A stretch of 64,000 nucleotides of DNA from Rhodovibrio salinarum DSM 9154. GTDB lineage: Bacteria; Pseudomonadota; Alphaproteobacteria; Kiloniellales; Rhodovibrionaceae. Numbering within the stretch: position 1 is the first letter of the stretch; each line of letters starts with the position of its first letter. The translations under genes and the position numbers were made by a program. Positions 3-17,557 of this stretch are shown piece after piece. The stretch spans positions 3,766,693 through 3,830,692 of the forward strand of contig NZ_KI911559.1 in the NCBI RefSeq assembly GCF_000515255.1, read 5' to 3'. Below the pieces are notes generated by a model that saw nothing but the letters and a program-made list of their open reading frames with translations, was not told the DNA's origin and searched no databases.

Positions 3-1139
3 GGCTTGCACCAGAAGAAGCGTCGGCAAGCGACCTTGCAGGCCCGTCTCGACGCGGCCCGGGCCGAAGCGCGTCGATCCGTCCCGAAGATCTGCTTTGG
101 CGGCCGTGGGAAACTGCGCCGGGGCGAGATCGGTGAATGGCGTGAGCGACGTACCCGCATGATCACGCTGGTCGGCTCGAAGGATGAGGCGGCCGGCAAC
201 CAGACGGTGGAGACCCTCACGGTCCGTCTCCCGGATGCGCTGGGCGGCGGCTTCAAGACGTTGCACGGCGTGCAGTTCCGTTACGGTCAGGCGGAGATGC
301 GCGCCGCCCTGGACCTGGGCGCGGGTATCACGTGGCGTTTTTATCGCCGGGACGACGGCGCCTGGCAGGCCAACGCGACCATCGAGGAACCGGCGCCGGC
401 CGTCACCGCCACGACCCGCGCCGGCACGATAGGGCTGGATCTGAACGTGGAGCACGTGGCGGTGATGGTGGTGGACCGGTACGGCAATGCGGTCGAGCGC
501 TGGTCCGAGCCGTTCCCCACGGCCGGTACGGACACGAACGAAGCCGCGGCGATGATCGGCGATGCGGTGAAGCGGATCGTCGACGCGGCGTGGGCCCGCG
601 GCATGGCTGTGGCGTGCGAGAACCTGGACTTCCAGCAGAAAAAGGCGGGTCTGCACAACGTCTCGAAGCATCATGCCCGGCGCCTGAGCGGGTTCGAGTA
701 CACGCAGTTCCACGCCAGGCTGGCCGCCCGCTGGGGGCGCTGCGGGGTGGAGCTTCACGCGGTGAACCCAGCGTACTCATCGCTCATCGGCGAGAAGAAA
801 TACGCCCGGGGCTTGAACCTGACGCGCCATCACGCGGCGGCGCTCGTTCTGGCCCGCCGGGCGATGGGATACGGCGAGCGTCTCGTCTGCATGCGCCGTG
901 ACGCCCTCGTCTCAGCCGCGCAGCATGAGGCGAGGCACGTATGGCCCCGATGGCGGGGCGCTCGCCCGAGGCGTTCGCGGGAGACGCACCGTCCCACCGC
1001 GACGTCGGCGCCCGGACGCACCCGGACCGGGGCGGCTCGCCGGAGCCGGGCCTGCGCGGTGGCCTCGCCACCGGCTGTGTCCACCCGCTCCGACCGGACG
1101 TCAGCCGGGGCTGCTGTTCCCCCGGCGAACCCTGTCTGA
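3..1139 (+). CDS. TnpB-related (IS200/IS605 accessory) protein, 5' end outside the window
   Basis: The reading frame is open to the left edge, so the N-terminus is missing. RuvC-like motifs can be seen: IGLDLNVEHVAV (first Asp, about residue 143) and ACENLDFQQKK (Glu, about residue 205). The third segment reads LNLTRHHAAALVLARR. In active TnpB this position normally carries a catalytic Asp in a DxNAA-type motif; here there is His and no CxxC zinc finger precedes it. The C-terminal tail is Arg/Pro-rich. This subfamily (TnpB-related, with VNPAYSS and HxAAAxVxARR motifs) is known from IS605-type elements. No TnpA partner is visible. Whether the protein still cuts DNA with a guide RNA is unclear. 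Confidence 0.8.
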   Translation, partial: GLHQKKRRQATLQARLDAARAEARRSVPKICFGGRGKLRRGEIGEWRERRTRMITLVGSKDEAAGNQTVETLTVRLPDALGGGFKTLHGVQFRYGQAEMRAALDLGAGITWRFYRRDDGAWQANATIEEPAPAVTATTRAGTIGLDLNVEHVAVMVVDRYGNAVERWSEPFPTAGTDTNEAAAMIGDAVKRIVDAAWARGMAVACENLDFQQKKAGLHNVSKHHARRLSGFEYTQFHARLAARWGRCGVELHAVNPAYSSLIGEKKYARGLNLTRHHAAALVLARRAMGYGERLVCMRRDALVSAAQHEARHVWPRWRGARPRRSRETHRPTATSAPGRTRTGAARRSRACAVASPPAVSTRSDRTSAGAAVPPANPV

Positions 1140-1359: not shown

Positions 1360-1404
1360 ATGAGACGACACGCTGCGCCGCTATGGCTTAGCCGTCGAAA
1401 ATGA
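1360..1404 (+). CDS. Possible 14-residue leader peptide
   Basis: A 14-codon frame (MRRHAAPLWLSRRK) starts 6 bases after a strong Shine-Dalgarno stretch, GGAGGGG. Its stop TGA overlaps the ATG at 1401 (ATGA), which is in frame with the acyl-AMP ligase. This could be a translated leader coupled to a longer ligase start, or chance. It is too short to assess by composition. Confidence 0.2.
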   Translation: MRRHAAPLWLSRRK

Positions 1405-1526
1405 CAAGCTCCGCCCCGCGGACGGCCTCAGGTGAAAAGGGGGATAGCCGCGCCGTACACCTGCCCGAAGCGTCCGGTCGGCGCGGCTCACGCGCCGGCG
1501 GACACGCTGAACACCAGCTGAGAGCG

Positions 1527-3359
1527 ATGAGGCAACCACAAGAGAGCCATGCCGTGGCTAATAAGCCTATGCCTGCCACCCCCGCCTCGGGGGCGCCAGA
1601 GGTAACACCCACCAGCGACCCGTCCCTGGCATACCGCCCTGCCGATTTCGCCAACCTGACCGACGCCCTGGACTACGCAGCCCGGGGTGAGACCGGGCTC
1701 AATTTCTACGACCGCCGGGGCCGAGTGGCGACCGTTGTGAGCTACGCCGCGTTGCGGCGGCGCGCACTTGAGGTGGCGCGCGGGCTCCTTGCCCAGGGGC
1801 TGGAGCGCGGCGAGCGCGTCGCGCTGGTTGCGGAGATGGCCCCAGCGTTCGCCGTCGGGTTTTTCGCCTGTCAATACGCGGGCCTTCACGCGGTGCCTGT
1901 GCCCGCGCAGGCCGGCCTGGGCAACTCGGCGGGTTACGTCGACGGTTTGCGGCGCATCCTTGTTAGTGCGCGCGCCCGGATCGCACTGGGCGGAGAGAGG
2001 GACCTCGAACCGCTTAAGGCGGCGGTGGCCGGACTGCAGGTCGGCCGTGTAACCACCGTCGCAGCGCTACTGGACGAGGCCGGTTCGGGGCCTGGGGAAG
2101 GCGCGCTGCAGCCGCTCGGCCCGGCGGAGATCAGCCACGTCCAGTACTCCTCGGGCAGCACGCGCGATCCCGTCGGCATACAGATCGATCAGCACGGGTT
2201 GATGGCGAACGCCGCACGCGCGGTGCGCGACGGGCTGGCCATCGGCGCCGACGACCGTGCGGTGTCCTGGTTGCCGTTTTACCATGATATGGGCCTCATC
2301 GGCTTTCTGGCGATGCCGGTAACCTGTCAGATGTCAGTGGATTATCTGGCGCCGGAGGCGTTCGCCCTGCGGCCCACGTTGTGGCTGGAGCTGATCTCGG
2401 CGAACCGCGGCACAGTGGCGTTCAGCCCGACCTTCGGCTACGAGCTCTGCACCCGCCGCGCGCCCGGGCTGAAAGAGCTAGATCTCAGCAGCTGGCGAAT
2501 CGCGGGGGTTGGTGGCGAGCGCGTGCGCCCGGAAACGCTGGAGGCCTTCGCCGCGACCTTCGCGCCGGCCGGCTTCCACGCGACGGCCTTCACGCCGTCC
2601 TACGGGCTGGCGGAAGCGACGCTTGCCGTAAGCTTCCACGCCACGAGGCACGCCCCGGTGGTCGACACGGTGGATGCCACGGCGCTGATGCGGGACGGTG
2701 AAGCCCGGCCGGTGTCGGCTGGCGACACCGCGCAGGCATGCCGTTTCGTTGCGTGTGGCCGGCCGCTGACCGACCATCAGGTCCAGATTCGGGACAGCGC
2801 CGGGCGCCGTCTTGCCGAGCGCGCGGTGGGCCGGATCTTCGTCGCTGGCCCCAGCCTGATGCGGGGCTACGTCGACAACGATGCGAACAGTGTCGGCGCG
2901 CCGCAGCCTGATGGGTGGCCGGACGGCTGGCTGGACACGGGCGATCTCGGCTACCTTGCCGACGGTGCCCTCTACGTCACCGGCCGCCGGAAGGATCTGA
3001 TCATCGTCAACGGCCGCAACATCCCACCGCAGGACCTGGAGTGGGTTGCTGAACAGGCGGTCGATAGGTTGTCCGACCGCGACACCGCCGCCTTCTCGGT
3101 GCTTGATTCGGCGGGGCGGGAAACACCGGTCTTGCTTGCGCAGATTCGCGCACGGGACCCGCAGGTCCGCAAGCGCCTGCGCGAGCGCATCCAGGCCGCG
3201 CTGTTCCAGAGCTTAGCTATCACCTGCCGTGTCATACTTGTCCCGCCGCGTAGCTTGCCGTTCACAAGCTCGGGTAAGCTCAGTCGGACCAAGGCGCGCG
3301 AGTTGTACCTTTCCGGCAGCTTGGGCAATGCCGGCCCGGCGGCAACAGCTGGCGAGTGA
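1527..3359 (+). CDS. aasR: Fatty acyl-AMP ligase / acyl-ACP synthetase of ceramide synthesis
   Basis: This adenylate-forming enzyme of about 610 residues should activate a fatty acid and load it onto the acyl carrier protein encoded two genes downstream. The AMP-binding loop reads YSSGSTRDPVGI, the Lys-less form typical of fatty acyl-AMP ligases. Further motifs are PSYGLAEATLA, WLDTGDLGYL, GRRKDLIIVNGRN and a C-terminal SSGKLSR holding the catalytic Lys. The start is uncertain: ATG 1527 follows GAGAG closely, but the frame stays open back to ATG 1401, and GTG 1554 is also possible. The stop is followed directly by the start of the next gene. In Caulobacter the equivalent enzyme, AasR, is one of five proteins needed for ceramide, and the same gene neighbours occur here. 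Confidence 0.8.
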   Translation: MRQPQESHAVANKPMPATPASGAPEVTPTSDPSLAYRPADFANLTDALDYAARGETGLNFYDRRGRVATVVSYAALRRRALEVARGLLAQGLERGERVALVAEMAPAFAVGFFACQYAGLHAVPVPAQAGLGNSAGYVDGLRRILVSARARIALGGERDLEPLKAAVAGLQVGRVTTVAALLDEAGSGPGEGALQPLGPAEISHVQYSSGSTRDPVGIQIDQHGLMANAARAVRDGLAIGADDRAVSWLPFYHDMGLIGFLAMPVTCQMSVDYLAPEAFALRPTLWLELISANRGTVAFSPTFGYELCTRRAPGLKELDLSSWRIAGVGGERVRPETLEAFAATFAPAGFHATAFTPSYGLAEATLAVSFHATRHAPVVDTVDATALMRDGEARPVSAGDTAQACRFVACGRPLTDHQVQIRDSAGRRLAERAVGRIFVAGPSLMRGYVDNDANSVGAPQPDGWPDGWLDTGDLGYLADGALYVTGRRKDLIIVNGRNIPPQDLEWVAEQAVDRLSDRDTAAFSVLDSAGRETPVLLAQIRARDPQVRKRLRERIQAALFQSLAITCRVILVPPRSLPFTSSGKLSRTKARELYLSGSLGNAGPAATAGE

Positions 3360-4340
3360 GTGGTGGCACCGTCTGCCGACACCACCGCCGGACCGGGGAC
3401 TTCCGCCCGGGCGACGCGGGTCGCGGTGACCGGGGCGGGCGGATTTCTCGGGCGGCGCGTCGTCGCCCAGCTGGCTAGGACGGGGTATTCCGTCCGCGCG
3501 CTCTACCACAGGCGCGGGCCTGACGGCACTGCGGACGTGGAGCCCGTTCGCGGCAGCCTGGCGGATGCGGAGGCCCTGGACCGACTCGTCGCGGGCTGCG
3601 ATGCGGTGATCCACTTGGCCGGTCTAGTCGCCGCTGACCGGCCGGGCCGGTTCGACGCGGTCAACCACGCCGGAACCGTCCGGCTGGCCGAGCGCGCGGC
3701 CGCCGCACGGGTTGGCCGCTTCCTTTTCGTCTCCAGTCTTGCGGCGCGGCATCCGGCGTTGTCGCCCTACGCGGCAAGCAAGCGCGCCGGAGAGCGGGCG
3801 TTGACCGGGCGCATGGATCTGCCGGTCGACGTGCTCCGGCCGCCGGCGGTGTACGGGCCGGGAGACCCGCAGATCCTTATGTTCCTGCGGTTGCTCCGGC
3901 TGCGGATCGCCCCGCTTCCCGGTCCGCCCACGGCCCGGGTCTGTCTCATCCACGCCGACGACGCGGCCTCAGCCATCGCCGCCTGGCTCGCGGGCCCGGG
4001 CGCGTCCGGGGCGATTTACGAGATCGCCGATGACCGGCCTGACGGCTACAGCTGGCGCGAGCTGATGGAGATAGCCGCATGTGCCTGTGGCGTGCGGCCG
4101 TGGTATTTGCGTCTCGGGCGGCCAGCCCTTATCCCGTTGGGGGCACTAGGCGAGGGGGTGGCGCGTCTCACCGGGCGGGCCGCGCCGTTATCGCGCGGCA
4201 AGGTGCGCGAGCTGACCCATCCCGATTGGCGGACCGACTGGACGGCCTTTGGCCGGCGAACCGGCTGGGGGCCCACTGTCGAGTTGCGCGCCGGGCTAAC
4301 CCGGACGGTCGACTGGTACCGGGCGCACGGCTGGCTCTAG
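3360..4340 (+). CDS. cerR: CerR-type NAD-dependent epimerase/reductase of ceramide synthesis
   Basis: A 326-residue extended short-chain dehydrogenase. The dinucleotide-binding motif TGAGGFLG is at residues 24-31, and the catalytic Ser is near 125 with YAASK at 137-141. In bacteria with this gene set CerR reduces the 3-keto group of the long-chain base or of oxidised ceramide. The GTG start is immediately adjacent to the TGA of the ligase gene, so translation is probably coupled. The family also contains sugar epimerases, so the assignment rests on context: ligase before, ACP and Spt after. Confidence 0.75.
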   Translation: MVAPSADTTAGPGTSARATRVAVTGAGGFLGRRVVAQLARTGYSVRALYHRRGPDGTADVEPVRGSLADAEALDRLVAGCDAVIHLAGLVAADRPGRFDAVNHAGTVRLAERAAAARVGRFLFVSSLAARHPALSPYAASKRAGERALTGRMDLPVDVLRPPAVYGPGDPQILMFLRLLRLRIAPLPGPPTARVCLIHADDAASAIAAWLAGPGASGAIYEIADDRPDGYSWRELMEIAACACGVRPWYLRLGRPALIPLGALGEGVARLTGRAAPLSRGKVRELTHPDWRTDWTAFGRRTGWGPTVELRAGLTRTVDWYRAHGWL

Positions 4341-4377
4341 GCGAGCCGGCGACCCCGCAACAACTGGAGCCGCAGCC

Positions 4378-4668
4378 ATGACCGAAAATACGGTTGGGAC
4401 GCCGACCCCGGAGCACCGCGAGATTGTTGAGGCCGTGTGCGCAGAACTGGAAAAACACAACACGACCGGCATTCAACTCCACGAAGATACCGACGTCACC
4501 GGCGAACTAGCGATCGACTCGGTCGCCGTGATGGATCTGATGTTCGAATTGGAAGAGCGGTTCGACATCGCGGTGCCATTGAACCAACTGGGGAGTGTAC
4601 GCACGATCGGGCAGATTGCGGACCTTGTCCGGTCGCAGGCCAAATCCGGGGGGCAGCAAACCGAATGA
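4378..4668 (+). CDS. acpR: Acyl carrier protein for serine palmitoyltransferase
   Basis: A 96-residue acidic carrier protein. The phosphopantetheine attachment motif is IDSVAVMDL with Ser48, and the helix II region LEERFDIAVP is clear. It probably carries the acyl chain loaded by the upstream ligase and hands it to the downstream Spt or to the ceramide synthase. The gene ends in an ATGA overlap with spt (4665-4668), a strong sign of coupled translation. Confidence 0.85.
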   Translation: MTENTVGTPTPEHREIVEAVCAELEKHNTTGIQLHEDTDVTGELAIDSVAVMDLMFELEERFDIAVPLNQLGSVRTIGQIADLVRSQAKSGGQQTE

Positions 4669-5873
4669 AAGATCTACTCGCCAAGTTCACCGCCGTCGGG
4701 CGCCAGCATGCTGAGCTCTTGGCCCAGGTTGGTAGCGATCCGCTCGGGGTCCGCGTCGATCGCGTGATCGGGCCAACAGAAGCGGAGATTGAGGGCCGTC
4801 GCTGCGTGCTCCTGGGCTCCAACAACTACCTGGGGCTGACCTTCGAGCCGACGGCGCTTGAGGGCGCGCACGCCGCCCTCGACGCAGCTGGAACTGGGAC
4901 CACCGGGTCGCGGGTGGCAAACGGCTCCTACAGTCTGCACCAGGACCTGGAGCGCCAGCTTGCGGCCTTCTTTGGGCGCCGGCACGCGCTGTTGTTCAGC
5001 ACCGGTTACCAGGCGAATGTCGGCATGCTCTCCGCGATCGCCGGCCGAGACGACACTGTCCTGATCGACTCCGACTGCCACGCCAGCATCTACGACGGCT
5101 GCAAACTGAGTGATGCCACGGTCCAGCGCTTCCGCCACAACGACCCGGAGAACCTGGACCGCCGTCTGGCCCGCCTGCAGGCGCCAGGCAACGCGCTGGT
5201 GGTGATCGAGGGGATTTACTCAATGCTGGGTGACCGCGCTCCCGTGCGGGAAATCGCCGAGGTCACCCGGCGTCACGGCGCCTATCTTATGGTGGACGAG
5301 GCGCATTCCCTGGGCGTGACCGGACCGGGCGCCCGTGGCGTCGCGGCGGAAGCGGGCGTCGCGGACAAGGTCGACTTCATCGTCGGCACCTTTTCCAAGA
5401 GTGTGGGCACGATCGGCGGGTTTTGCGCCGCCGACCACGACGCACTGGAAGCGATCCGCCTGTCGGCGCGCGCCTATCTCTTCACCGCATCCCTGCCCCC
5501 CGCTGTGGTAGCGTCGGCCAGGTGCACGCTGGAGCGAATGCGTACCGATCCCGGTTTGCGCGACCGGCTGTGGGCCAACGCCGAGATTGTCTACGACGGG
5601 CTCGCTCGAATGGGATTTGAGCTCGGGCCGGAGAAGACGCCGGTAATCGCCGTGCGCATGCCGGACACGCAGACCGGCCTCACCACTTGGCGCGACCTGC
5701 TGGACGACGGCGTGTACGTAAACCTAGCGCTACCCCCGGCAACCCCGAACGGCAACTGCCTGCTGCGCTGTTCCGTCTGCGCCGCGCACTCAGCCGACCA
5801 ACTGGACCACGTGCTTGCTGCATTCGCGCGGGTGGCGGACGCGCCCGATTGGCGCGGCACGGCCGCAGAGTAG
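4665..5873 (+). CDS. spt: Serine palmitoyltransferase
   Basis: A 402-residue alpha-oxoamine synthase that condenses serine with an acyl thioester to give 3-keto long-chain base, the committed step of sphingolipid synthesis. Visible features are GTGTTGSRVANGSY near 77-90, the PLP-stacking His139, Asp211 in DEAHSLG, and Lys245 in GTFSKSVGT, which forms the Schiff base with PLP. Length and motifs fit soluble bacterial Spt. Related enzymes (KBL, BioF, ALAS) share the fold, but the adjoining ACP, CerR and acyl ligase favour Spt strongly. The ATG start overlaps the ACP stop. Confidence 0.88.
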   Translation: MKDLLAKFTAVGRQHAELLAQVGSDPLGVRVDRVIGPTEAEIEGRRCVLLGSNNYLGLTFEPTALEGAHAALDAAGTGTTGSRVANGSYSLHQDLERQLAAFFGRRHALLFSTGYQANVGMLSAIAGRDDTVLIDSDCHASIYDGCKLSDATVQRFRHNDPENLDRRLARLQAPGNALVVIEGIYSMLGDRAPVREIAEVTRRHGAYLMVDEAHSLGVTGPGARGVAAEAGVADKVDFIVGTFSKSVGTIGGFCAADHDALEAIRLSARAYLFTASLPPAVVASARCTLERMRTDPGLRDRLWANAEIVYDGLARMGFELGPEKTPVIAVRMPDTQTGLTTWRDLLDDGVYVNLALPPATPNGNCLLRCSVCAAHSADQLDHVLAAFARVADAPDWRGTAAE

Positions 5874-5894
5874 CGTCTGCGACGGGCGCCGCCC

Positions 5895-6848
5895 TCAACG
5901 CAGCCCGCCGGCCCGGTAGATACGCCACAAAAGCGGCCAGCCGCCGATCAGCGGGTGCCGGCGCTGGAAAGGCGTTGGCCGAACCGCTACGCCGCTGTGC
6001 CGCTCGATCTTGGCGCATACGTAATCCACACCGCCGTCGAAGGTAAACGTGGCCTTGATCGCCCGGGCGAGCGACAGCACTTTGCCCGCCGGTCGGGCGA
6101 CTTGGCTCGCCAGCTGGGCGCGCCCGCGCTGCCAGCGTGTCAGATGCACCCGCACGCGGCCATCATCGCTCAGGGACGCATGCGGCGAGAGGCAGCGGAT
6201 AGCCGTTGGCGTGCGGGCCGTCAGCGCGGTACCCCCCGCCGCCACGATCGCCCGGGCCCGTGCCGGCGCCTCGCTGCGCAGCTCCCGGGCGTAGGTCTCG
6301 GTTAGGCCGGCCTGCCAGAGATCGTGCGGGGTCGTGCGGTCGGGCAAAATGCCTAGAAGCTTGCGGTGAAAGCTCACGGTAGCAGCCGTCAGGGCGTCGA
6401 GGATCGCCGACCGGGTCGCCTCGTCGCGGGCGTATATCAGCCGGCACGGCTGGGCGAACCGGGCCCAGATGGAAGGGGTCGCCGACCGCCCAGCGGTCCC
6501 ACGCGCAAACTGCGTCCAAGTGACCACGGCCACCTTCGCTCCGACGAGTGTCCCGTCTTTGCATACGGTGGTTTCAAGATAGATCACGTTGGGCGGCAGG
6601 AGCCGATTAAGGCCGGCCAGTACCGGACCGAAACCGGTCGCGGATGGGGTGTCGACAAGCAGATACAGGTCGATCAAGTCGGCGTGACGCGGCGCCCACA
6701 GACTGCTACCGTAGAACAGTACCCCTACCACCTGCTCGCGCCGGCACCGCGCCAGCAGGGCGTCGACCGCCGCGCGAACCTGGGCGTCGACGGCGGTCTC
6801 CGCAGCTTCAACCACGAGGGCGCGCAAATCGGTCCACCCCTCGGACAT
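5895..6848 (-). CDS. TAM41-like nucleotidyltransferase, probable CDP-lipid or head-group enzyme
   Basis: A 317-residue protein. Near residue 40 it has YGSSLWAPRHADLIDLYLLVD spread over about 20 positions, a GS motif followed by an acidic strand as in polymerase-beta-fold transferases. The pattern GS-x-D-h-x-h-h-V resembles the mitochondrial CDP-diacylglycerol synthase TAM41. The sequence around TWTQFARGT and IWARFAQPCRLIY also recalls TAM41. In this operon it could convert ceramide-1-phosphate to a CDP-activated lipid; that is inference. It is the last gene of a leftward operon, starting 11 bases after the kinase stop, and converges on spt with a 21-base gap. Caulobacter has a comparable set of cpg genes next to spt. 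Confidence 0.5.
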   Translation of the reverse strand: MSEGWTDLRALVVEAAETAVDAQVRAAVDALLARCRREQVVGVLFYGSSLWAPRHADLIDLYLLVDTPSATGFGPVLAGLNRLLPPNVIYLETTVCKDGTLVGAKVAVVTWTQFARGTAGRSATPSIWARFAQPCRLIYARDEATRSAILDALTAATVSFHRKLLGILPDRTTPHDLWQAGLTETYARELRSEAPARARAIVAAGGTALTARTPTAIRCLSPHASLSDDGRVRVHLTRWQRGRAQLASQVARPAGKVLSLARAIKATFTFDGGVDYVCAKIERHSGVAVRPTPFQRRHPLIGGWPLLWRIYRAGGLR

Positions 6849-6859
6849 GATCGTAGGCC

Positions 6860-7819
6860 TCACGCCACGACGAAGCGGAGCGAGCTGTCCGACTGCACCG
6901 TAAGGGTGGCGTCGGCCGGACCGTCGAGCGGCTCCCCGTCTAGCACCCAGTCTTCGGTCGCGCTCAGCGCGACCGATCGGCAGCGGCATGCCGCGAACGG
7001 TTTCGACTCGATGGCCGTAAAGGACGGCCAAGGGCGCCATAGCGCGGACGGCGCACGCCGCCAGAGGCCTGGGACGTGGGCGTTGATCACCGCCACGCCG
7101 ACGCCATCGCCGGGCGATACCGGGCGTAAACCGAGCAGCAGCCGTTCAAGGCTGGTGACAATCACGGCGATGCGGGGTGCGGTCGCGCCCGGACTGTCGT
7201 TGCAGACGATCCGCACGTCGGCCGGTCGGAGGAGGGGCGTGGTTTTGAGCCCACCACACGCCAGGCGCCAAAGGCTCCAGATCAGGGCGAGCGACCACGC
7301 GAGTGGGCCAGCAATGCCGCGGGCATACAGACCGCGCCGCGCGGCTGCCGTTACCCGCGGGATCCCCACGCCGCCGAGGAAGAACCCGTAGGACGGCGGC
7401 GCGCCCGCGCTCCGCACCAGAAGCGGACGCCGCGTAACTATTGGCAGCTGGCCGTCGGTCGTGTCCCAGTGTTTGAGCAGGCGTGCAAGAGCGGCCGCGG
7501 GCGCGCCTGGGCAGCCGGCATCGCGGGCGATCATGTTGGTGCTGCCGCCGGACAAAACCGCAAGAATCGGCTCGCGAGTGAAAGGCTTGTGCCGGCGCAG
7601 CGCGGTCACGACTGCGACCACCGTGCCGTCGCCGCCGTCGATCGCGAGCACGCGAGTGTTCCGCGCCGCGAGGGTGCGCAGCGCGTTGGGAAGTTCCCGT
7701 AGCCTCGCCGGTTGTAGATGGTCGATCCCGCGGGCGCGGGTGAGCGCCTCGAGCTCGCGGCGAGCGCGCGTGCGGTTGTTGCCGCTGGCCGGGTTGGACA
7801 AGACCGCGATATCGCTCAT
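6860..7819 (-). CDS. cpgB: Diacylglycerol-kinase-family lipid kinase, probable ceramide kinase
   Basis: A 319-residue protein of the DAGK catalytic family. The nucleotide-binding motif DGGDGT is at 61-66 and LSGGSTNMIARD is near 90. Such kinases phosphorylate a lipid hydroxyl. Placed beside spt and between a CDP-alcohol transferase and a nucleotidyltransferase, it fits the role of Caulobacter CpgB, which makes ceramide-1-phosphate. The start codon overlaps the stop of the upstream gene by four bases (ATGA). A generic diacylglycerol or sphingosine kinase cannot be excluded from sequence alone. Confidence 0.65.
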   Translation of the reverse strand: MSDIAVLSNPASGNNRTRARRELEALTRARGIDHLQPARLRELPNALRTLAARNTRVLAIDGGDGTVVAVVTALRRHKPFTREPILAVLSGGSTNMIARDAGCPGAPAAALARLLKHWDTTDGQLPIVTRRPLLVRSAGAPPSYGFFLGGVGIPRVTAAARRGLYARGIAGPLAWSLALIWSLWRLACGGLKTTPLLRPADVRIVCNDSPGATAPRIAVIVTSLERLLLGLRPVSPGDGVGVAVINAHVPGLWRRAPSALWRPWPSFTAIESKPFAACRCRSVALSATEDWVLDGEPLDGPADATLTVQSDSSLRFVVA

Positions 7820-9018
7820 ACTGGTGCCTTGAGCCAAGATGCGACTGGCTGTCCACGGGTGTTCGCCCGCTCCGCTTGCACGGTCCGGAGGAGATGGATG
7901 ACAGCGGAGGCCAGGATCCATGCGGTCGTGGCCAGGATTCCTAGATCTGGGCGGCCGGCGAGCCAGGCCAGTGTCAGCAGCACGAGGCACGGGTTACGGC
8001 GGGCGGTGATTTGTCGGAACCCGGAATCGAACCGTGTCCAGACGAACAACTCAAAGCCGAACCGACGGGTGAAATACCCTTCCGGCAGCCGGCCCAAGAC
8101 GTAGCCAACGAAAATCGCCGCCACGGTCCAATCGAGCCACGGCTGTGGCAGCGCGTGACCGGTCTCCACCAGCCCGTAAGCCCAGGCCGCGTACCACAGC
8201 GGCGGGTGCACAAGATCAATGCCATGGTCGAACAGGTTACCGAACTTCGATGACGACAGGGTAACGCGTGCCAGCTTGCCGTCAACGGTATCGAGGAAGG
8301 TCATCAACCAAGCTGCGAGCAACCCCCAACCGTAAGCACTCGTAGCGAACGCCCACAGCGCGGCCAACACCAGTACCGCGCTCAAAAGCGTGACCGCGTT
8401 CGGGGTCACGCCCAGGCGGACGCAGCCGCGTGTCGCCCACATCGCCGGTACCGGCCAGACGTGTTTGGTGACGGCGTCCGTTATACCCTTGTAGGCAGCC
8501 ATGTACACACGCCGCTCCACCGCGCGCTGTGTGGCGCGATCAACTTGCAGGCAGTAGGGGGGCTCGCGCTTACGCAGCTTCCCGCGGTAGGCGTCCCCGG
8601 CGTGCTCCGGCGCGCACGGAGTGGTACCGTCCGGTGGCAGGCCTTCGCCTGTCAGCCATGCTCGCGCTTGCTCGGTCTGGCGGGCGGGGACGTGAACGGC
8701 CAGGCGCACCGTGCCGTTGTCGGTCGGGCGCTCCAGGCGCGTTCCCGGCTGGTTCAGCAGGGCCGACAGGAGAGGCGTGTCGTACACGACGTCGCCGCGC
8801 AGCAGCAGGACGCGCTTGGTCCGGGGGTACGATCCACGTGCCGCCCACGACACGTCCGCCACGCTGAGGCCCTTGAACTGGCGGTGAATCCGCTGTTCCG
8901 GTTCGAGCCCCCAAACCTTGACCGGCTCTTCGGACCTCACGACATAAACCGTTACGGCGGAGTTGTTAGGCTCGGTGGTATGTGTCACCAATGAAAATCC
9001 CGCCTTGCTTCCGGACAT
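7816..9018 (-). CDS. CDP-alcohol phosphatidyltransferase with an N-terminal nucleotidyltransferase-like domain
   Basis: A 400-residue integral membrane enzyme. Residues 1-175 look like a worn nucleotidyltransferase domain: it keeps LLLRGDVVYD near 71-80 but lacks a clear GxGxR loop. From about 185 the CDP-alcohol transferase begins, with the full signature D243-x2-DG-x2-AR-x8-G-x3-D264-x3-D268 and several hydrophobic helices. The two-domain layout resembles the IPCT/DIPPS enzymes that make phosphodiester polyols. Here it probably joins a CDP-activated partner to ceramide phosphate or adds a polyol phosphate head group; the substrate is unknown. It is the first gene of the leftward three-gene operon. 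The start was chosen at ATG 9018; an in-frame ATG at 9060 would overlap the divergent gene. Confidence 0.75.
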   Translation of the reverse strand: MSGSKAGFSLVTHTTEPNNSAVTVYVVRSEEPVKVWGLEPEQRIHRQFKGLSVADVSWAARGSYPRTKRVLLLRGDVVYDTPLLSALLNQPGTRLERPTDNGTVRLAVHVPARQTEQARAWLTGEGLPPDGTTPCAPEHAGDAYRGKLRKREPPYCLQVDRATQRAVERRVYMAAYKGITDAVTKHVWPVPAMWATRGCVRLGVTPNAVTLLSAVLVLAALWAFATSAYGWGLLAAWLMTFLDTVDGKLARVTLSSSKFGNLFDHGIDLVHPPLWYAAWAYGLVETGHALPQPWLDWTVAAIFVGYVLGRLPEGYFTRRFGFELFVWTRFDSGFRQITARRNPCLVLLTLAWLAGRPDLGILATTAWILASAVIHLLRTVQAERANTRGQPVASWLKAPV

Positions 9019-9040
9019 CTGAATGTCGCCGAACGCCCCG

Positions 9041-9904
9041 ATGAGGCTTTTCGCACACATTTCCGATTTGCACCTACCGCCGCTGCCAGCGATCCGGCCG
9101 CGCGAATTCACGGGCAAGCGTCTGCTGGGATACGTGGTCTGGCACCGACGGCGCAAGTATGAACATCGCGTCGAGGTGTTAGACGCTTTGCTCCACGAGC
9201 TGGCCTGTCAGGCGCCCGATCATGTCGTAATCACCGGCGATCTAACCAACCTCGGCTTGGCCGCGGAGTTTGAGGGCGTTGCGCGCTGGCTCAGACGTCT
9301 CGGGCCCACGAGGGCCGTCACCCTGATTCCGGGTAACCACGATGCCTACGTCCAAGCGAGCGAAGAGGCGATGCGATTGGCGTTGCGGCCCTGGCTGCTG
9401 GACGACGACGGGGCGGCCGAGTTTCCGCTCCTGCAAGTCCGTGGCGGGGTCGCTTTCATCGGGGTTTCGACGGCGATACCAACGGGCATCGGGCAGGCCC
9501 ATGGCCGGGTTGGATGCGAGCAGATGTCGCGACTGGCGGCGATTCTCCGCACCGCTTTGGCTCGCGGACTCACACGCGTGGTGGCTTTGCACCATCCACC
9601 CCAGTGGGGCGCCGAAAACTGGCGCCGGGGCTTGGACGATGCTTCGGCCTTGCGCGCGATAATCGCCAAGGAGGGCGCGGACTTGGTTCTGCACGGCCAT
9701 GCCCATGGGCCCCGTCAAGCCGACCTGCCGGGCCCGCACGCGCCTGTCCCGGTTTACGGGGTGGCTTCCGCGTCGTTGCTGAAAAACAGGACGCACCAGA
9801 CTGGGCACTACCGCCTTTTCCGGCACCGCGCTGGTGGCCACTTCGCCGTCGAGGAGCGATGCTTCGATCCAGCGATCGGGACGTTCACTGCAGCCCGGGT
9901 ATAA
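9041..9904 (+). CDS. Metallophosphoesterase (Icc-like), possible lipid-phosphate phosphatase
   Basis: A 287-residue calcineurin-like phosphoesterase with all metal-binding blocks: SDLHL near residue 8, GDLTN, GNHD, HHPPQW and GHAHG. The start ATG 9041 gives the usual MRLFAHISDLHL beginning; ATG 9023 is in frame and only 4 bases from the divergent start codon. In phospholipid synthesis a phosphatase removes a terminal phosphate after CDP-dependent head-group transfer, so a similar role on ceramide head groups is possible but inferred. Cyclic-nucleotide phosphodiesterase activity is the default family prediction. Confidence 0.7.
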   Translation: MRLFAHISDLHLPPLPAIRPREFTGKRLLGYVVWHRRRKYEHRVEVLDALLHELACQAPDHVVITGDLTNLGLAAEFEGVARWLRRLGPTRAVTLIPGNHDAYVQASEEAMRLALRPWLLDDDGAAEFPLLQVRGGVAFIGVSTAIPTGIGQAHGRVGCEQMSRLAAILRTALARGLTRVVALHHPPQWGAENWRRGLDDASALRAIIAKEGADLVLHGHAHGPRQADLPGPHAPVPVYGVASASLLKNRTHQTGHYRLFRHRAGGHFAVEERCFDPAIGTFTAARV

Positions 9905-9975
9905 GCCTTGGGTATAAGCCTGCAGCCGCGCGCTTCGAGGCGGCGGCGCTCGCGACGGTGTGAGCCGACAACTGT

Positions 9976-10004
9976 TTGACATTCACCGACCCGGTATTTA
10001 CCGA
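9976..10004 (+). promoter_or_regulatory. Possible promoter before the LicC-like nucleotidyltransferase
   Basis: A perfect TTGACA (9976-9981) is followed after 17 bases by TACCGA (9999-10004). The -35 box is perfect, the -10 box is weak. It lies 45 bases upstream of the start codon in a 144-base gap. Confidence 0.35.
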
Positions 10005-10048
10005 ATTCTCCTTAGCGGTCAGCGCCGCCATGGGTCAACGGGGTTTTC

Positions 10049-10804
10049 ATGAAAGCGATCATCCTGAGCGCTGGACAGGGTAAGCGGTGTCTCCCATTGA
10101 CGAGCGAGACGCCCAAGTGTCTATTGCCGGTCGATCTTGATCACACCATTCTGACGTGGCAAATCTCGGTGCTCACGGCTGCGGGCATTACTGAATGCGT
10201 TGTCGTGTCGGGCTTCGAAGCCGGTCGTATTGATGAAGAACTAGCCCGGAAGCGTCTGTCGTCAGCGCGCACGATCTACAATCCCTTCTACGATGTCTCG
10301 GACAACCTAGCATCGGTCTGGTGCGCCCTTCCGGAAGCCACGGAGGATTTTCTGCTGATCAACGGCGATACCCTGTTCGCACCGGCCACCGTGCGCCGGT
10401 TGTTGGCCTCTCATGCAACGATCACCGTCACGATTTCGCAGAAAGCGCGCTACGATGCCGACGACATGAAGGTGCGAGTGTCCGATGAGTTGGTATGCCA
10501 AATCGGCAAGCACCTCAACCCGACCTGTGCGGACGGCGAGGCGATTGGTATGACCCTGTTTCGCGGCTCCGGCCGCGACTGCTTTGCCGAGACCGTGTAT
10601 CGAAGCTTGCGCCGGCCCGGCGGCCGTGATTTGTGGTACCCAGCCGCGTTAGACGAACTAGCGCGCGGGGACGGGCTGACCGTATCGCATTGTAGTACGG
10701 ACGCGTGGTGCGAGGTTGATGTGCCAAGCGACCTACAACAGGCCCGCCAGGCCGTGCAGCGTTGGCGCAGCACGGGGGCGCCTCACCTGGCCGCCGTGTC
10801 GTGA
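10049..10804 (+). CDS. LicC-like sugar/alcohol-phosphate nucleotidyltransferase
   Basis: A 251-residue nucleotidyltransferase of the GT-A fold. The start MKAIILSAGQGKRCLPLT is the NTP-binding loop, followed by PKCLLPV. INGDTLF near 108 supplies the metal-binding Asp. The segment YNPFYDVSDNLASVW resembles the phosphocholine and inositol-phosphate cytidylyltransferases (LicC, IPCT) more than sugar enzymes. It could supply the CDP- or NDP-activated head group for the CDP-alcohol transferase, whose own N-terminal nucleotidyltransferase domain looks inactive. Its 3' end overlaps the converging next gene by 22 bases. Confidence 0.7.
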   Translation: MKAIILSAGQGKRCLPLTSETPKCLLPVDLDHTILTWQISVLTAAGITECVVVSGFEAGRIDEELARKRLSSARTIYNPFYDVSDNLASVWCALPEATEDFLLINGDTLFAPATVRRLLASHATITVTISQKARYDADDMKVRVSDELVCQIGKHLNPTCADGEAIGMTLFRGSGRDCFAETVYRSLRRPGGRDLWYPAALDELARGDGLTVSHCSTDAWCEVDVPSDLQQARQAVQRWRSTGAPHLAAVS

Positions 10805-11610
10805 GCGCCCGGGCCCTGTCGCGCGATCCGGCGGACGAGCGCGAGGTCAGCTGGCGTATCGACATCGATCGCCGCTTCGGGCTGTTCCAGCAAAACCGGC
10901 GCAACTCGGCAGCCGATCTGTGCGGAAAGCCGCTCCAGCGCCTGCGCAAGGGTCCAACGGCGCAGAAGATAACCAACCAGGCTCGCCGGGCCGAGTCGCG
11001 CGGCGATACGATGCGGGGCCTTACGGCTCTGTTCCAGCTCGCGCCAGAAGGTCACGGCGCGCGACCCGGCCGGGCGCATCATGGCGTAAAGGTTACATCC
11101 GCTGTACACTCCGTCGCGCATCCGTAGCCTGCTGCAGCGCACTTCCGGGTAGCGTTGCGCCAGGATCTGAACCTGGTTCATGGCAACTGCGAAGTCACAG
11201 GCAGCCCGCTGTGCGCCGACCAAGACGTCGTCTACCATGGCGGCCGTTAGCAGCGGATGGTCTGCGGTGACGATCAGCAGCGGCCGGTCACCGGGTGCTA
11301 CGGCGGCGCCGTCGAGTGCGCTGGCCGCGCGCGAGGGTCCCGGTTCGCGTAAGCTCACCGACCCCGCGCGAATGTGCGCGGGCAATTCCGTGAGGTGGGC
11401 CGTCGTCACGGCGTCTCGGCTCAGACTCAGCGTGACGTGGGTGATCCGATCGCTGGCGAGGAGGGCCGCAACCACCCGCTCGACCATTGCGGTGCCGGCC
11501 ACTCGCGCGAATGGCTTGGCCGCGACCGAGTCGGCCTGGGCCACGGGATGGGTCCGATCGACGCCGCCTGCGAGCACGAGCGCGTGCGCTCTTGCACCGT
11601 CGTTCGTCAT
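10783..11610 (-). CDS. MobA-like NTP transferase in the ceramide synthase operon
   Basis: A 275-residue nucleotidyltransferase. It opens with HALVLAGGVDR and an AKPFARVAGTAMVERV segment, and has LLIVTADHPLLT near residue 115 as the metal-binding region; IDVDTPADLALV lies at the C-terminus. The loop lacks the usual GxG-R-M, so the nucleotide used is unclear. It is the last gene of the leftward operon starting with the HIT gene, and its ATG overlaps the ceramide synthase stop by four bases. It is a second candidate for making the activated head group. Confidence 0.6.
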   Translation of the reverse strand: MTNDGARAHALVLAGGVDRTHPVAQADSVAAKPFARVAGTAMVERVVAALLASDRITHVTLSLSRDAVTTAHLTELPAHIRAGSVSLREPGPSRAASALDGAAVAPGDRPLLIVTADHPLLTAAMVDDVLVGAQRAACDFAVAMNQVQILAQRYPEVRCSRLRMRDGVYSGCNLYAMMRPAGSRAVTFWRELEQSRKAPHRIAARLGPASLVGYLLRRWTLAQALERLSAQIGCRVAPVLLEQPEAAIDVDTPADLALVRRIARQGPGAHDTAAR

Positions 11611-12749
11611 CTCAATGCCTTGCGATAGAGCCGGTAACGTTTGTCCTCCTCAGCCCTCAACAGCTCGAGTAAGCGGATCATCGGTTCGTTGTCCTCCAGA
11701 ATCCACGACAGTTCGAACTCGGCCATGTTTAGGCCGCGGGCGGCCTCATGGAGGCGTTGCATCATCAGTGCGCTCAGCCCGGCGGCAAGGTTGCCGCCTT
11801 GGTAACGCCGTCGCACGCCCATAAGCATAACCCTGCCGTGTTCCGGTGGGCGGAACTTAATCCGCCACAGCAGCCACGCCCAACCGAACGGCAGCAGCCG
11901 GCCGCGCAACTCGCGCAGAACTATGTAGAGGTCAGGCACGGCGACGATCATTGCCACCGGCTCGCCGTCGTATTCCGAGATACGGACCAACTCCGGGCGG
12001 ATAATCGGTTTCAGGCTTCGGGTCATGTGGCGGACTTCCGCCTCTGTCATCTGGACAAAGCCCCAATTACCGGACCAGGCATCGTTGAACACGTTGGCGA
12101 CCCGACGCATCTCCGCATTGAGGTCGCGCATATCGAGTTGCCGTTCCCGAACGCGCGGGTCAGCGGCGGCGCTACGGGCGACGAGCGCGGCTCTTGCGGG
12201 AAAGCTCTGATTAACGTTCGCCCGGTACGCGAGCAGGTCCTTGGCCTTGATGTAGCCGGCCTTCTCTAGGGCCTTGGCGTACCATGCAGGGCCGTAGTTC
12301 ATTAGCACCCTTGGCGGGCGGTCGTGCCCCACCACGAGAAGCCCAGTCTCATCGTTGCTGGACAGGCTGTACGGGCCCTCCGACAGCGCTGCGCCCTCGT
12401 CCAGGAGCCAGGCTTCCGCCGCCTCCAGGAGCGCGTGCAGAACCTCTTGGTCGGCGGCCTCAACCAGGCCGAAATGGCCGATCGGCGTACCGAGATCCGG
12501 TTGCGCAAGCCAGTCGATCTGCGCGCTTATCCGGCCCACCGGCCGTCGGTTCCGGCATGCGAGGAAGAATCGTGCGCGGGCGTGCTCGAAATAGGGGTTG
12601 GCTGTGCCGAAATGCTGGCGCCGCTCGAATTGCAGCGGCGGAACCCAGTTCGGATCGTTGTGATAAAGCGCGAAGGGGACGCGAACGAACGCGCGCAGGT
12701 CTCGCCGGCTGTCGACCGGTCGCACCGCGATCTCTTCAGGTTCCGTCAT
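11607..12749 (-). CDS. bcerS: Bacterial ceramide synthase (GNAT-fold N-acyltransferase)
   Basis: A 380-residue protein that should N-acylate the sphingoid base to give (dihydro- or keto-)ceramide. It matches the family annotated as a large GNAT-like acyltransferase: an N-terminal part with FVRVPFALYHNDPNWVPPL, a middle part with EGPYSLSSNDETGLLV, and a C-terminal acyl-CoA-fold region with RRRYQGGNLAAGLS. FALYxxDPxWVPPL is characteristic of the group that includes Caulobacter bCerS. It sits 4 bases after the permease gene and overlaps the next gene by 4. The assignment is strengthened by spt, acpR, cerR and aasR nearby. Confidence 0.75.
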   Translation of the reverse strand: MTEPEEIAVRPVDSRRDLRAFVRVPFALYHNDPNWVPPLQFERRQHFGTANPYFEHARARFFLACRNRRPVGRISAQIDWLAQPDLGTPIGHFGLVEAADQEVLHALLEAAEAWLLDEGAALSEGPYSLSSNDETGLLVVGHDRPPRVLMNYGPAWYAKALEKAGYIKAKDLLAYRANVNQSFPARAALVARSAAADPRVRERQLDMRDLNAEMRRVANVFNDAWSGNWGFVQMTEAEVRHMTRSLKPIIRPELVRISEYDGEPVAMIVAVPDLYIVLRELRGRLLPFGWAWLLWRIKFRPPEHGRVMLMGVRRRYQGGNLAAGLSALMMQRLHEAARGLNMAEFELSWILEDNEPMIRLLELLRAEEDKRYRLYRKALR

Positions 12750-15593: not shown

Positions 15594-16295
15594 TCAAGTG
15601 AAATCCGCTGCTGGCTGCATCACGATCCGGGAGCCGTCGTCGTGCTGGAATGCAACCCGGAGCAGTAGCCCCCGGTCATCGTACCAGACGTCCCGCTGCA
15701 CCTCGCCGCCCAGGCGGTAGTGCCGGGCCGTCTGACGTGTGTCGCCGATCCGGACGGCTTCGCGCCCGATGTCCTGCGTGGCGTTGGTTTTCATCCAGCC
15801 GTCCTCGACCTCCAGAAGCTGTGGTGCCTGTGGGGTCCGGGGGTGCCAGAGCGTCGTCGTGAGGGGGCTTTCCGGGAACGTTCTGCGTTCACCCTTATGG
15901 TTCTCCAGCACCAGCGGACCGTCGCCGTCGCGTACGCCCGCCAGGCTTTTCTCTTTGCCGTTCTTGCGGGTTTGACTGTCGAGACCAATCAGGGTGTCGC
16001 CTCGCCAGCGTTCGACAGAGGTATGGCGGTAGCTGTATAAAGGGACGGAGAACAGTGTGACCACAAGATCAATCTCGGTGGTTACCGCCAGAATGTCGCC
16101 GTTCTGGCGTAGCGTACGAATGTGTGCGCCGATCGGGCGGCCTTCGCGCAGAACCGTATATCGGTACCGGCCAACGGGAGGCTCGACCGCAGCCCGTGCG
16201 TGGACATTCCCCAGGACTGCCAGGCATGCCCCGACCGCGCCGATACGGAGGGCAAAACCGCGTCGCGTGAAACCGCGTCGTGCCAAGGTAATCAC
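15594..16295 (-). CDS. DUF6134-type exported protein with Tat-like signal
   Basis: About 233 residues. The N-terminus carries TRRGFALRIGAVGACLAVLG followed by an ARA cleavage site, close to the twin-arginine pattern. The mature part is beta-rich with YRYTVLREGRPIGAH and RDVWYDDRGLLLRVAF, resembling DUF6134/DUF3108 periplasmic proteins. Start GTG 16295 places the signal at the N-terminus; ATG 16367 in frame would add 24 residues before it. The function is not known. A periplasmic protein next to a lipid-export operon might help carry lipid. A 145-base gap separates it from the HIT gene. Confidence 0.6.
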   Translation of the reverse strand: MITLARRGFTRRGFALRIGAVGACLAVLGNVHARAAVEPPVGRYRYTVLREGRPIGAHIRTLRQNGDILAVTTEIDLVVTLFSVPLYSYRHTSVERWRGDTLIGLDSQTRKNGKEKSLAGVRDGDGPLVLENHKGERRTFPESPLTTTLWHPRTPQAPQLLEVEDGWMKTNATQDIGREAVRIGDTRQTARHYRLGGEVQRDVWYDDRGLLLRVAFQHDDGSRIVMQPAADFT

Positions 16296-16453
16296 TAACC
16301 TGCCGATGGTTGCTGGAACGGGTGGCCAGGATTTCAAGATTGTATCTGAACCGGTATACTTAACCATGCCCCAACGCAATTGTTATCGGTGCGTGAGTGC
16401 ACCTTGACCGCATGCGCACGCCAGCCCGCGGTCCCCGCTCCAGTGCTCGGGAG

Positions 16454-17557
16454 ATGGCCCCAGTGAGCACTGTCGACCCGACGCGGCGCTCCGATAGCCG
16501 CGAAGATTTACCGGTCTGGGCGCTGCTCGGCCCCAAGGCAGGCGACAACGAGCAGGTCATCGCGCTGGCGGAGGCGCTGGAGCGGCCGTACCGAATCGTT
16601 CGGCTCCGCTACACGGGCGCCTACCGTCTGCCCAACCGGCTGCTCGGCGCGACATTGCACAGTCTTGCGGCAGCCGATCCGGACTTGACGCCTCCCTGGC
16701 CGAAGCTTGTCTTGGCGGCCGGCCGGCGAAGCGTGCCGGTCGCCCGTTGGATTCAGCGCGTCGCGGGCCACCGTGTCCGACTGGTGCAGATCGGGCGGCC
16801 GCGTGCGCCGCTTGGCTGGTTTGATTTGGTGCTGGCGCCGCCGCAATATCATCTGCCCGCGCGCAGAAATCTGGTCCGTCTGCCCCTGCCCCTCGTAAGA
16901 GCGCAGCGCGCGGACGACCCGCATCCAGCGTGGACGGCGCGGATCGCAGATCTTCCCGCGCCGCGTGCCGCCGTCCTGATCGGCGGCGACGCCCGCGCCC
17001 GCGATCTAACACGCGCGACCGTCTGGAAAACCCTGGATGCCGCCGCCGAACGCGTCGGCCACGGCGGGTCGCTGATGGTCACTACCAGTCCACGCACGGA
17101 GGAGGGGCGTCTGCCGGATCTGCAAACCTCCTGCGCAACGTTGGTCTACCGCTGGCATGCGCAGAGCGGCCGCGACAATCCGATGGATGCGTTCCTCGAT
17201 AAGGCCGACCGGATTGTCGTCACGGGGGACAGCGTGTCGATGCTGGCCCGAGCGGTGGCAACTGGGAAGCCGGTCACCGTCGTGCCGGTGCCCCGGCGCG
17301 CACCGTACAGCTCGCGTGCCGGCGCTGGGCTAGACCTCTTGCGGCTGTGGCAACGCGGCCTGGCCAACGCGCCGCTGCTGACGCCGCCGCCGGACCCGGA
17401 TGCGGTGTTCGAGGCGCTCGTCGCCGACGGCCGGGCCGCGTGGACAGAAGGGCTTCTGGACCTGCCCGGCCGGCCAGGGGTGAACAGCGCGCTCATCGCC
17501 CCCGTGTGCGCTCGAATACTCAGCCTGATCGACGGGAACGGCGCCGGCGGCGCGTAA
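16454..17557 (+). CDS. ELM1-family (mitochondrial fission ELM1-like) protein
   Basis: A 367-residue protein of the ELM1/DUF1022 family, which has a glycosyltransferase-like two-domain fold. Family blocks visible are VWALLGPKAGDNEQ near the start, LVLAAGRRSVPVARW, ALIGGDAR, SLMVTTSPRT and VTGDSVSMLARAVATGKPV. The biochemical role in bacteria is not settled. It diverges from the DUF6134 gene and heads a run of glycan genes. ATG 16454 was chosen; GTG 16463 has a better-spaced GGGAG. Confidence 0.75.
   Translation: MAPVSTVDPTRRSDSREDLPVWALLGPKAGDNEQVIALAEALERPYRIVRLRYTGAYRLPNRLLGATLHSLAAADPDLTPPWPKLVLAAGRRSVPVARWIQRVAGHRVRLVQIGRPRAPLGWFDLVLAPPQYHLPARRNLVRLPLPLVRAQRADDPHPAWTARIADLPAPRAAVLIGGDARARDLTRATVWKTLDAAAERVGHGGSLMVTTSPRTEEGRLPDLQTSCATLVYRWHAQSGRDNPMDAFLDKADRIVVTGDSVSMLARAVATGKPVTVVPVPRRAPYSSRAGAGLDLLRLWQRGLANAPLLTPPPDPDAVFEALVADGRAAWTEGLLDLPGRPGVNSALIAPVCARILSLIDGNGAGGA

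Follow-up and report, generated by a model that had tools for sequence, protein, structure and literature searches.

We find that CpgC, a protein encoded among sphingolipid genes in a 64,000-nucleotide stretch of the Rhodovibrio salinarum DSM 9154 genome (contig NZ_KI911559.1, positions 3,766,693 to 3,830,692; "the window" below, from a host assembly that is a single contig of 4.18 Mb), has the fold and the active-site signature of the cytidine diphosphate (CDP)-diacylglycerol synthase Tam41, and on the evidence of a structural model and of gene co-occurrence it is probably a ceramide-1-phosphate cytidylyltransferase making CDP-ceramide. The region is the known Caulobacter crescentus-type gene set for ceramide phosphoglycerate (CPG) and ceramide diphosphoglycerate (CPG2), not a new module; new here are the assignment of CpgC, whose chemistry was open, to the Tam41 fold and the division of the cluster into two enzyme pairs. 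Three open reading frames (ORFs) of the same direction fill positions 5895 to 9018:

5895-6848, minus strand: cpgC-like gene (product of 317 amino acids), Tam41-fold nucleotidyltransferase, predicted ceramide-1-phosphate cytidylyltransferase (CDP-ceramide synthase), from an AlphaFold2 model, structural matches to Tam41 and invariant residues.
6860-7819, minus strand: cpgB-like gene (319 amino acids), ceramide kinase of the DAGK_cat family with GGDGT (PF00781, E 9.8e-14).
7816-9018, minus strand: cpgA-like gene (400 amino acids), CDP-alcohol phosphotransferase (PF01066, CDP-OH_P_transf, E 2.4e-12), predicted CDP-glycerate:CPG phosphoglycerate transferase.

An initial annotation had taken the three products for a lipid kinase, a Tam41-like enzyme and a CDP-alcohol phosphotransferase; the two Pfam matches bear out the first and the last, and the structure prediction it had proposed as a check favours Tam41. 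The AlphaFold2 model of CpgC, built on 76 natural sequences, has a predicted local distance difference test (pLDDT) score of 93.7. The four best PDB chains in a Foldseek search are all mitochondrial Tam41 (E 3.9e-9), and VIA-align superposes the model on the Firmicutes Tam41 complex with cytidine triphosphate (CTP), 7ecd, at Z 18.9 (227 residues, 2.9 A) and on S. pombe Tam41, 6ig4, at Z 16.7. The next family in VIA-align, the aminoglycoside nucleotidyltransferases, reaches Z 9.1 and covers residues 18-159 only. The nucleotidyltransferase and winged-helix fold of 6ig4 and 7ecd is present in the model. When the CpgC family profile is aligned to 7ecd, the blocks YGSG..IDLI, FKYG and GRFQKP fall on G47-S48, D60, K105 and R130/Q133-P134; D60, K105, R130 and Q133 are invariant in 76 of 76 sequences, and the position two residues after D60 is Tyr or Phe, never an acid, in all of them. 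The full list of invariant residues is Y46, G47, D60, K105, W128, R130, Q133, E189, R191, E193, K265, T269 and F270. Tam41 retains one of the three nucleotidyltransferase acids (PMC11646218), and CpgC likewise has a single one, together with the K and R/Q-P motifs. The C-terminal helix of Tam41 is positively charged and binds the membrane (PMC7018664); helix 238-269 of CpgC has a net charge of +7 (family median +8), its amphipathicity is not above that of shuffles (0.13), and only the positive charge is notable.

The Pfam family Tam41_Mmp37 (PF09139) is matched by 17 of the 76 CpgC family members (best E 9.8e-7), and a direct hmmsearch of the CpgC profile against PDB sequences gave weak matches only, with 7ecd at E 0.035. 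The link to Tam41 therefore rests on structure, on the Pfam hits of relatives and on the register of the motifs. Judged by the model, CpgC is a divergent Tam41 homologue that resembles Tam41/TAMM41 in fold, single catalytic acid, K and R/QP motifs and positive C-terminal helix, but differs in that the Pfam model misses the window protein, in a strongly conserved C-terminal block (KAAFTFxGGxDYxxWKIxRHSG), in its genomic tie to sphingolipids and in its predicted substrate, ceramide-1-phosphate.

The gene set for CPG and CPG2 has been published for C. crescentus (PMC11324152; PMC12275187), in which the ceramides of the outer membrane carry negatively charged phosphoglycerate heads. Orthology of the window genes to those of Caulobacter is judged from which genes are present, from their neighbourhood and from the families they belong to. 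The genes for ceramide synthesis, aasR, cerR, acpR, spt (serine palmitoyltransferase, Spt) and bCerS (bacterial ceramide synthase), stand beside cpgA, cpgB, cpgC and cpgD, all within positions 1401-12749 of the window, and the same set recurs in other genomes of our locus survey. Caulobacter genetics indicate that CPG needs CpgB and CpgC, while CpgA, CpgD, CC_1153 and CC_1158 act toward CPG2; CPG is made even without CpgA or CpgD. In Caulobacter, biochemical work has established CpgB as a ceramide kinase (PMC10331486), and CpgD has been proved to be a phosphoglycerate cytidylyltransferase that yields CDP-glycerate (PMC12275187). CpgA has been proposed to use CDP-glycerate; CpgC has been described as acting "through a yet unidentified mechanism". 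The authors of the 2024 study pointed to an InterPro CDP-diacylglycerol (CDP-DAG) synthase domain in CC_1161 and suggested a nucleoside diphosphate-activated ceramide as product (PMC11324152), so that the CDP-lipid idea of the initial annotation is an independent rediscovery of their suggestion. Its choice of a ceramide backbone is supported; its statement that the head group is unknown has to be revised, because the equivalent Caulobacter genes give ceramide phosphoglycerate and diphosphoglycerate (PMC11324152, PMC12275187).

The substrate of CpgC is approached through co-occurrence. Among 289 alphaproteobacterial genomes, with Spt counted at E at most 1e-90, CpgC is found in 34 and Spt in 40; all 34 CpgC genomes possess Spt, six genomes have Spt without CpgC, and 249 have neither (Fisher p about 2e-38, relatedness ignored). 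The CpgB profile matches exactly the same 34 genomes. CpgC thus tracks both Spt and the ceramide kinase, which suggests that the lipid phosphate accepting cytidine monophosphate (CMP) is ceramide-1-phosphate. The term "CDP-ceramide" was not found in the literature searched. The kinase itself has the DAGK_cat catalytic domain with GGDGT, and keeps GGDG without the CxxxCxxC of eukaryotic ceramide kinase (criterion from PMC10331486). In a published kinase tree CpgB forms a separate clade, and Caulobacter CpgB phosphorylates diacylglycerol (DAG) besides ceramide in vitro (both PMC10331486). The solved relatives of the window kinase are DAGK_cat proteins of the DgkB/YegS/BmrU type. Undecaprenol kinases belong to a family other than DAGK_cat, and a grouping with them, which the initial annotation had named as a possible refutation, therefore does not apply.

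CpgA is best understood together with CpgD:

10049-10804, plus strand: cpgD-like phosphoglycerate cytidylyltransferase, which makes CDP-glycerate (NTP_transf_3, E 1.7e-12).

We compared the two in 39 CpgC-bearing genomes picked to include loci with and without CpgA; the count is a test of concordance and not an estimate of frequency, and some of the genomes are related or incomplete. A true CpgA orthologue was taken at 450 bits or more (next best 238), a true CpgD at 330 bits or more, or split at a contig end (one genome). CpgA and CpgD occur together in the same 22 genomes, and the other 17 have neither. One model of a bifunctional enzyme, IPCT-DIPPS (NF041135), is matched by CpgD at positions 1-217 and by CpgA at 249-349. 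Over its whole length, the CpgA model (pLDDT 88.8) can be superposed on AF2299 (Z 24.7, 321 residues) as well as on the IPCT-DIPPS structure 4mnd (Z 22.2). It shows the helical membrane fold of CDP-alcohol phosphotransferases, and the motif DGxxARx8GxxxDxxxD is present in 19 of 19 CpgA orthologues. The GxGxR...PK signature of nucleoside triphosphate transferases is missing from the N-terminal nucleotidyltransferase-like domain of CpgA in all 19, and present in CpgD in 15 of 15; the active-site residues R13, K23 and D107 of CpgD are invariant in these 15 orthologues (criterion from PMC12275187). CpgD resembles the cytidylyltransferase half of the archaeal IPCT-DIPPS (Archaeoglobus fulgidus 4mnd; NF041135) and of AF2299, and CpgA the CDP-alcohol phosphotransferase half, with a remnant of the N-terminal nucleotidyltransferase domain retained. 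In contrast to the archaeal enzyme there are two genes here, glycerate takes the place of inositol, and the acceptor is a sphingolipid. The CpgD-CpgA pair has the appearance of an IPCT-DIPPS divided over two genes, with glycerate as its substrate, and the donor from which CpgA adds the second head group is probably CDP-glycerate rather than CDP-ceramide. Because CpgA pairs with CpgD, and because CPG forms without CpgA in Caulobacter, CpgA is probably not the consumer of the CpgC product. We propose that CpgB with CpgC and CpgD with CpgA are two separable enzyme pairs. The CDP-lipid scheme of the initial annotation holds as far as a kinase, a Tam41-like enzyme and a CDP-alcohol phosphotransferase working on ceramide are concerned; a single linear pathway through the three genes does not, since CpgA goes with CpgD and CDP-glycerate.

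In the resulting scheme, CpgC, probably held at the inner membrane by its positively charged C-terminal helix, would use CTP to place CMP on ceramide-1-phosphate, with CDP-ceramide and pyrophosphate as the products. An additional CDP-alcohol phosphotransferase would exchange CMP for glycerate, with CPG as the product. CpgD would then make CDP-glycerate, an activity demonstrated biochemically in Caulobacter, and CpgA would pass phosphoglycerate from CDP-glycerate to CPG, giving CPG2. One and the same lipid would in this way undergo CTP activation of the lipid and CTP activation of the head group in turn. We regard this succession (CDP-ceramide from CpgC, the exchange for glycerate, then CpgD and CpgA) as likely overall; with somewhat less assurance, though still on balance, we favour the fuller statement that CpgC is a Tam41-type CDP-ceramide synthase dedicated to sphingolipids, that CDP-ceramide is a real intermediate, that lipid and head group are activated by CTP one after the other, and that a further CDP-ceramide:glycerate transferase acts between the two.

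Several observations weigh against this interpretation. Structural similarity reveals neither the nucleotide nor the lipid specificity of CpgC, the window CpgC has no Pfam match of its own, and a Pfam Tam41 search of its own genome and class reached at most 22.6 bits, below the cut-off. No enzyme using CDP-ceramide is known, and the candidates tested (CpgA, ELM1 and the L033-type transferase) lack the right distribution. Furthermore, 13 of the 17 loci that lack both CpgA and CpgD still have a homologue of CC_1153 beside bCerS, which fits the published placement between CPG and CPG2 poorly; contrary to that placement, CC_1153 may therefore work ahead of the CPG2 step or alongside it. The role of CC_1153-like proteins is probably not confined to the conversion of CPG to CPG2, and the scheme is incomplete in this respect.

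The candidates for the CPG-forming transferase were rejected on their occurrence. CpgA is absent from 17 of the 39 CpgC genomes; ELM1 (PF06258) occurs in 232 of the 289 genomes regardless of CpgC and is missing in 6 of 34 CpgC genomes; the L033-type CDP-alcohol transferase of the host genome is found in just 9 of the 34; and CpgA-like paralogues between bCerS and lptF2 are confined to about 10 of 80 loci.

Three rival explanations were weighed. The first is a linear route, in which CpgB makes ceramide-1-phosphate, CpgC makes CDP-ceramide and CpgA moves ceramide phosphate directly to an alcohol. Coupling of cpgA, cpgB and cpgC in one operon would suit it, as would the alignment of CpgA with a PIP-synthase-type enzyme that uses a CDP-lipid (Z 21.6; in the PDB this sequence bears the name of an AF2299 fusion). 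However, CpgA is lacking in the 17 genomes mentioned and is always accompanied by CpgD, Caulobacter forms CPG without it, and the folds nearest to it over the full length are those of AF2299 and of the CDP-inositol enzyme IPCT-DIPPS, so we consider this route quite unlikely. It is also conceivable that CpgC activates another substrate, either phosphatidic acid, as an extra CDP-DAG synthase, or glycerate phosphate. Characterised Tam41 proteins do use phosphatidic acid, and the in vitro activity of Caulobacter CpgB extends to DAG; on the other hand, CpgC is restricted to genomes with Spt (34 of 34), always occurs with the ceramide kinase family, and cpgC mutants of Caulobacter lose CPG, all of which makes such a substrate improbable.

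Alternatively, the Tam41-fold CpgC might join glycerate to ceramide-1-phosphate directly, without free CDP-ceramide. This would account for CpgB and CpgC being the only known Caulobacter genes needed for CPG, and for the fact that a separate transferase was found neither here nor in the literature consulted. The nucleotidyltransferase fold, however, appears to offer no obvious site for alcohol transfer, and the authors of the 2024 study rated such a reaction as energetically not very favourable (PMC11324152); we therefore consider this direct joining quite unlikely. CDP-ceramide synthesis by CpgC, followed by a separate glycerate transfer, is the interpretation we retain.

The three genes overlap or nearly do so and end against spt, as the initial annotation had noted. 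The ATG of cpgB sits one codon inside the ORF boundary at 7822, the cpgA stop and the cpgB start share a four-nucleotide ATGA overlap (7819-7816), cpgB and cpgC are 11 nucleotides apart, and 21 nucleotides separate the end of cpgC from the convergent spt stop at 5873. The listed starts of the divergent cpgA and phosphoesterase ORFs are just 4 nucleotides apart, so at least one true start probably lies further in; that of the phosphoesterase is probably at MRLFAHISDLH. Scans for promoters and terminators gave nothing useful above shuffles. The functional unit is larger than the three genes, which the initial annotation had treated as a module of their own: it comprises at least 11 genes, from about 1.4 to 12.7 kb of the window, together with lptF2/G2. 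Its other members, and the gene adjoining them, are:

1401-3359, plus strand: aasR, fatty acyl-AMP/ACP ligase (NCBIfam fatty acyl-AMP ligase NF006624, 695.9 bits).
3360-4340, plus strand: cerR, short-chain dehydrogenase/reductase (SDR) of ceramide reductase type, between aasR and acpR (PF01370, E 2.1e-26).
4378-4668, plus strand: acpR, acyl carrier protein (PF00550, E 5.1e-9).
4662-5873, plus strand: spt, serine palmitoyltransferase (NCBIfam NF047599, 603 bits, cutoff 500).
9023-9904, plus strand: CC_1158-like calcineurin-type phosphoesterase (PF00149, E 7.5e-18), kept in 47 of 80 loci.
10783-11610, minus strand: CC_1153-like MobA/IspD-type nucleotidyltransferase (NTP_transf_3, E 2.1e-8), its start overlapping the bCerS stop; adjoins bCerS in most loci.
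11607-12749, minus strand: bCerS, bacterial ceramide synthase of GNAT fold (PF00583, E 3.3e-5; position and co-conservation), equivalent to CC_1154 of PMC11324152.
12754-15026, minus strand: lptF2 and lptG2, a second LptF/LptG pair presumed to serve sphingolipid export (PF03739, E 1.2e-60 and 9.8e-62; 55 and 53 of 80 loci; CC_1155/1156 in PMC11324152).
15014-15448, minus strand: HIT-domain gene beside lptG2, in 36 of 80 CpgC loci of Alpha- and Gammaproteobacteria.

Compared with the Caulobacter cluster CC_1152-CC_1168, the window shares aasR-cerR-acpR-spt, cpgC-cpgB-cpgA, the phosphoesterase, lptF2/G2, bCerS, CC_1153 and CpgD, whereas no counterpart of the flippase CC_1166 or of LptC2 was identified in it; the order of operons may differ. 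Within the genus, CpgC of the window shares 97% identity with its Rhodovibrio sodomensis counterpart; the arrangement is conserved well beyond Rhodovibrio. We compared 80 CpgC loci of named genomes, which belong to the Alpha- and Gammaproteobacteria, the Desulfobulbaceae, the Nitrospirales and 'Kuenenia': 70 have a neighbouring CpgB homologue, 56 have Spt nearby and 50 have CpgA, a recurrence that cannot be attributed to chance.

Further observations concern the variable parts of these loci. The CpgA-like paralogue, of about 400 amino acids and 28-32% identical to CpgA of the window, has the motif DGKxARxTxTxSxxGN and lies in the bCerS-lptF2 operon (L046, L048, L051, L052, L064, L067, L090, L098, L100 and L113, with a third copy in L098 at 16063-17403); a role in attaching one more head group, or a head group of another kind, is conceivable. 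A fatty-acid hydroxylase gene (PF04116), a candidate ceramide hydroxylase, adjoins bCerS in 26 of 80 loci (e.g. L064:1828-2670); none was seen at this position in the window. Haliea, Porticoccus and related gammaproteobacterial loci (L074 8185-11000, L105, L106) possess cpgB-cpgC with no spt within 10 kb, accompanied by uncharacterised genes (clusters c33 and c18) without a Pfam match; the lipid acted on may differ there, or spt may lie elsewhere. CpgC homologues, annotated as hypothetical, are also carried on large Roseomonas plasmids and on plasmids of Diaphorobacter and Pseudomonas (NZ_CP025188.1, NZ_CP065408.1, NZ_CP073662.1 and others). The Caulobacter study deems CC_1157, similarly placed to the gene next to lptG2, probably unrelated. 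The window gene at that position encodes a HIT-domain protein, and CC_1157 is presumably a HIT gene as well.

A second, divergent ELM1-family gene lies at 16397-17557 (plus strand) of the window, the other copy of the genome being at G000:C1:926653-927564, and an ELM1 gene directly follows cpgC in several gammaproteobacterial loci (L068, L075, L078, L085, L087). ARAGORN calls a tRNA-Ser(GCT) at 17339-17428 (plus strand), inside the 3' part of this ELM1-like ORF; either the tRNA or the ORF is likely a wrong call. Two ORFs resemble transposases by eye only, at 27466-28635 (plus strand, ISAs1-like) and 6-1139 (plus strand, IS605 OrfB/TnpB-like).

Anionic ceramide lipids let Caulobacter live without lipopolysaccharide, and cationic antimicrobial peptides bind them there (PMC10331486). 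Papers of 2025-2026 describe the chemistry of both CpgC and CpgA as open. The assignment of the Tam41 fold, the two pairs defined by co-occurrence and the residues named here reduce the open step to a question about one enzyme. If our interpretation is true, ceramide would become one more lipid with a known activated CDP form.

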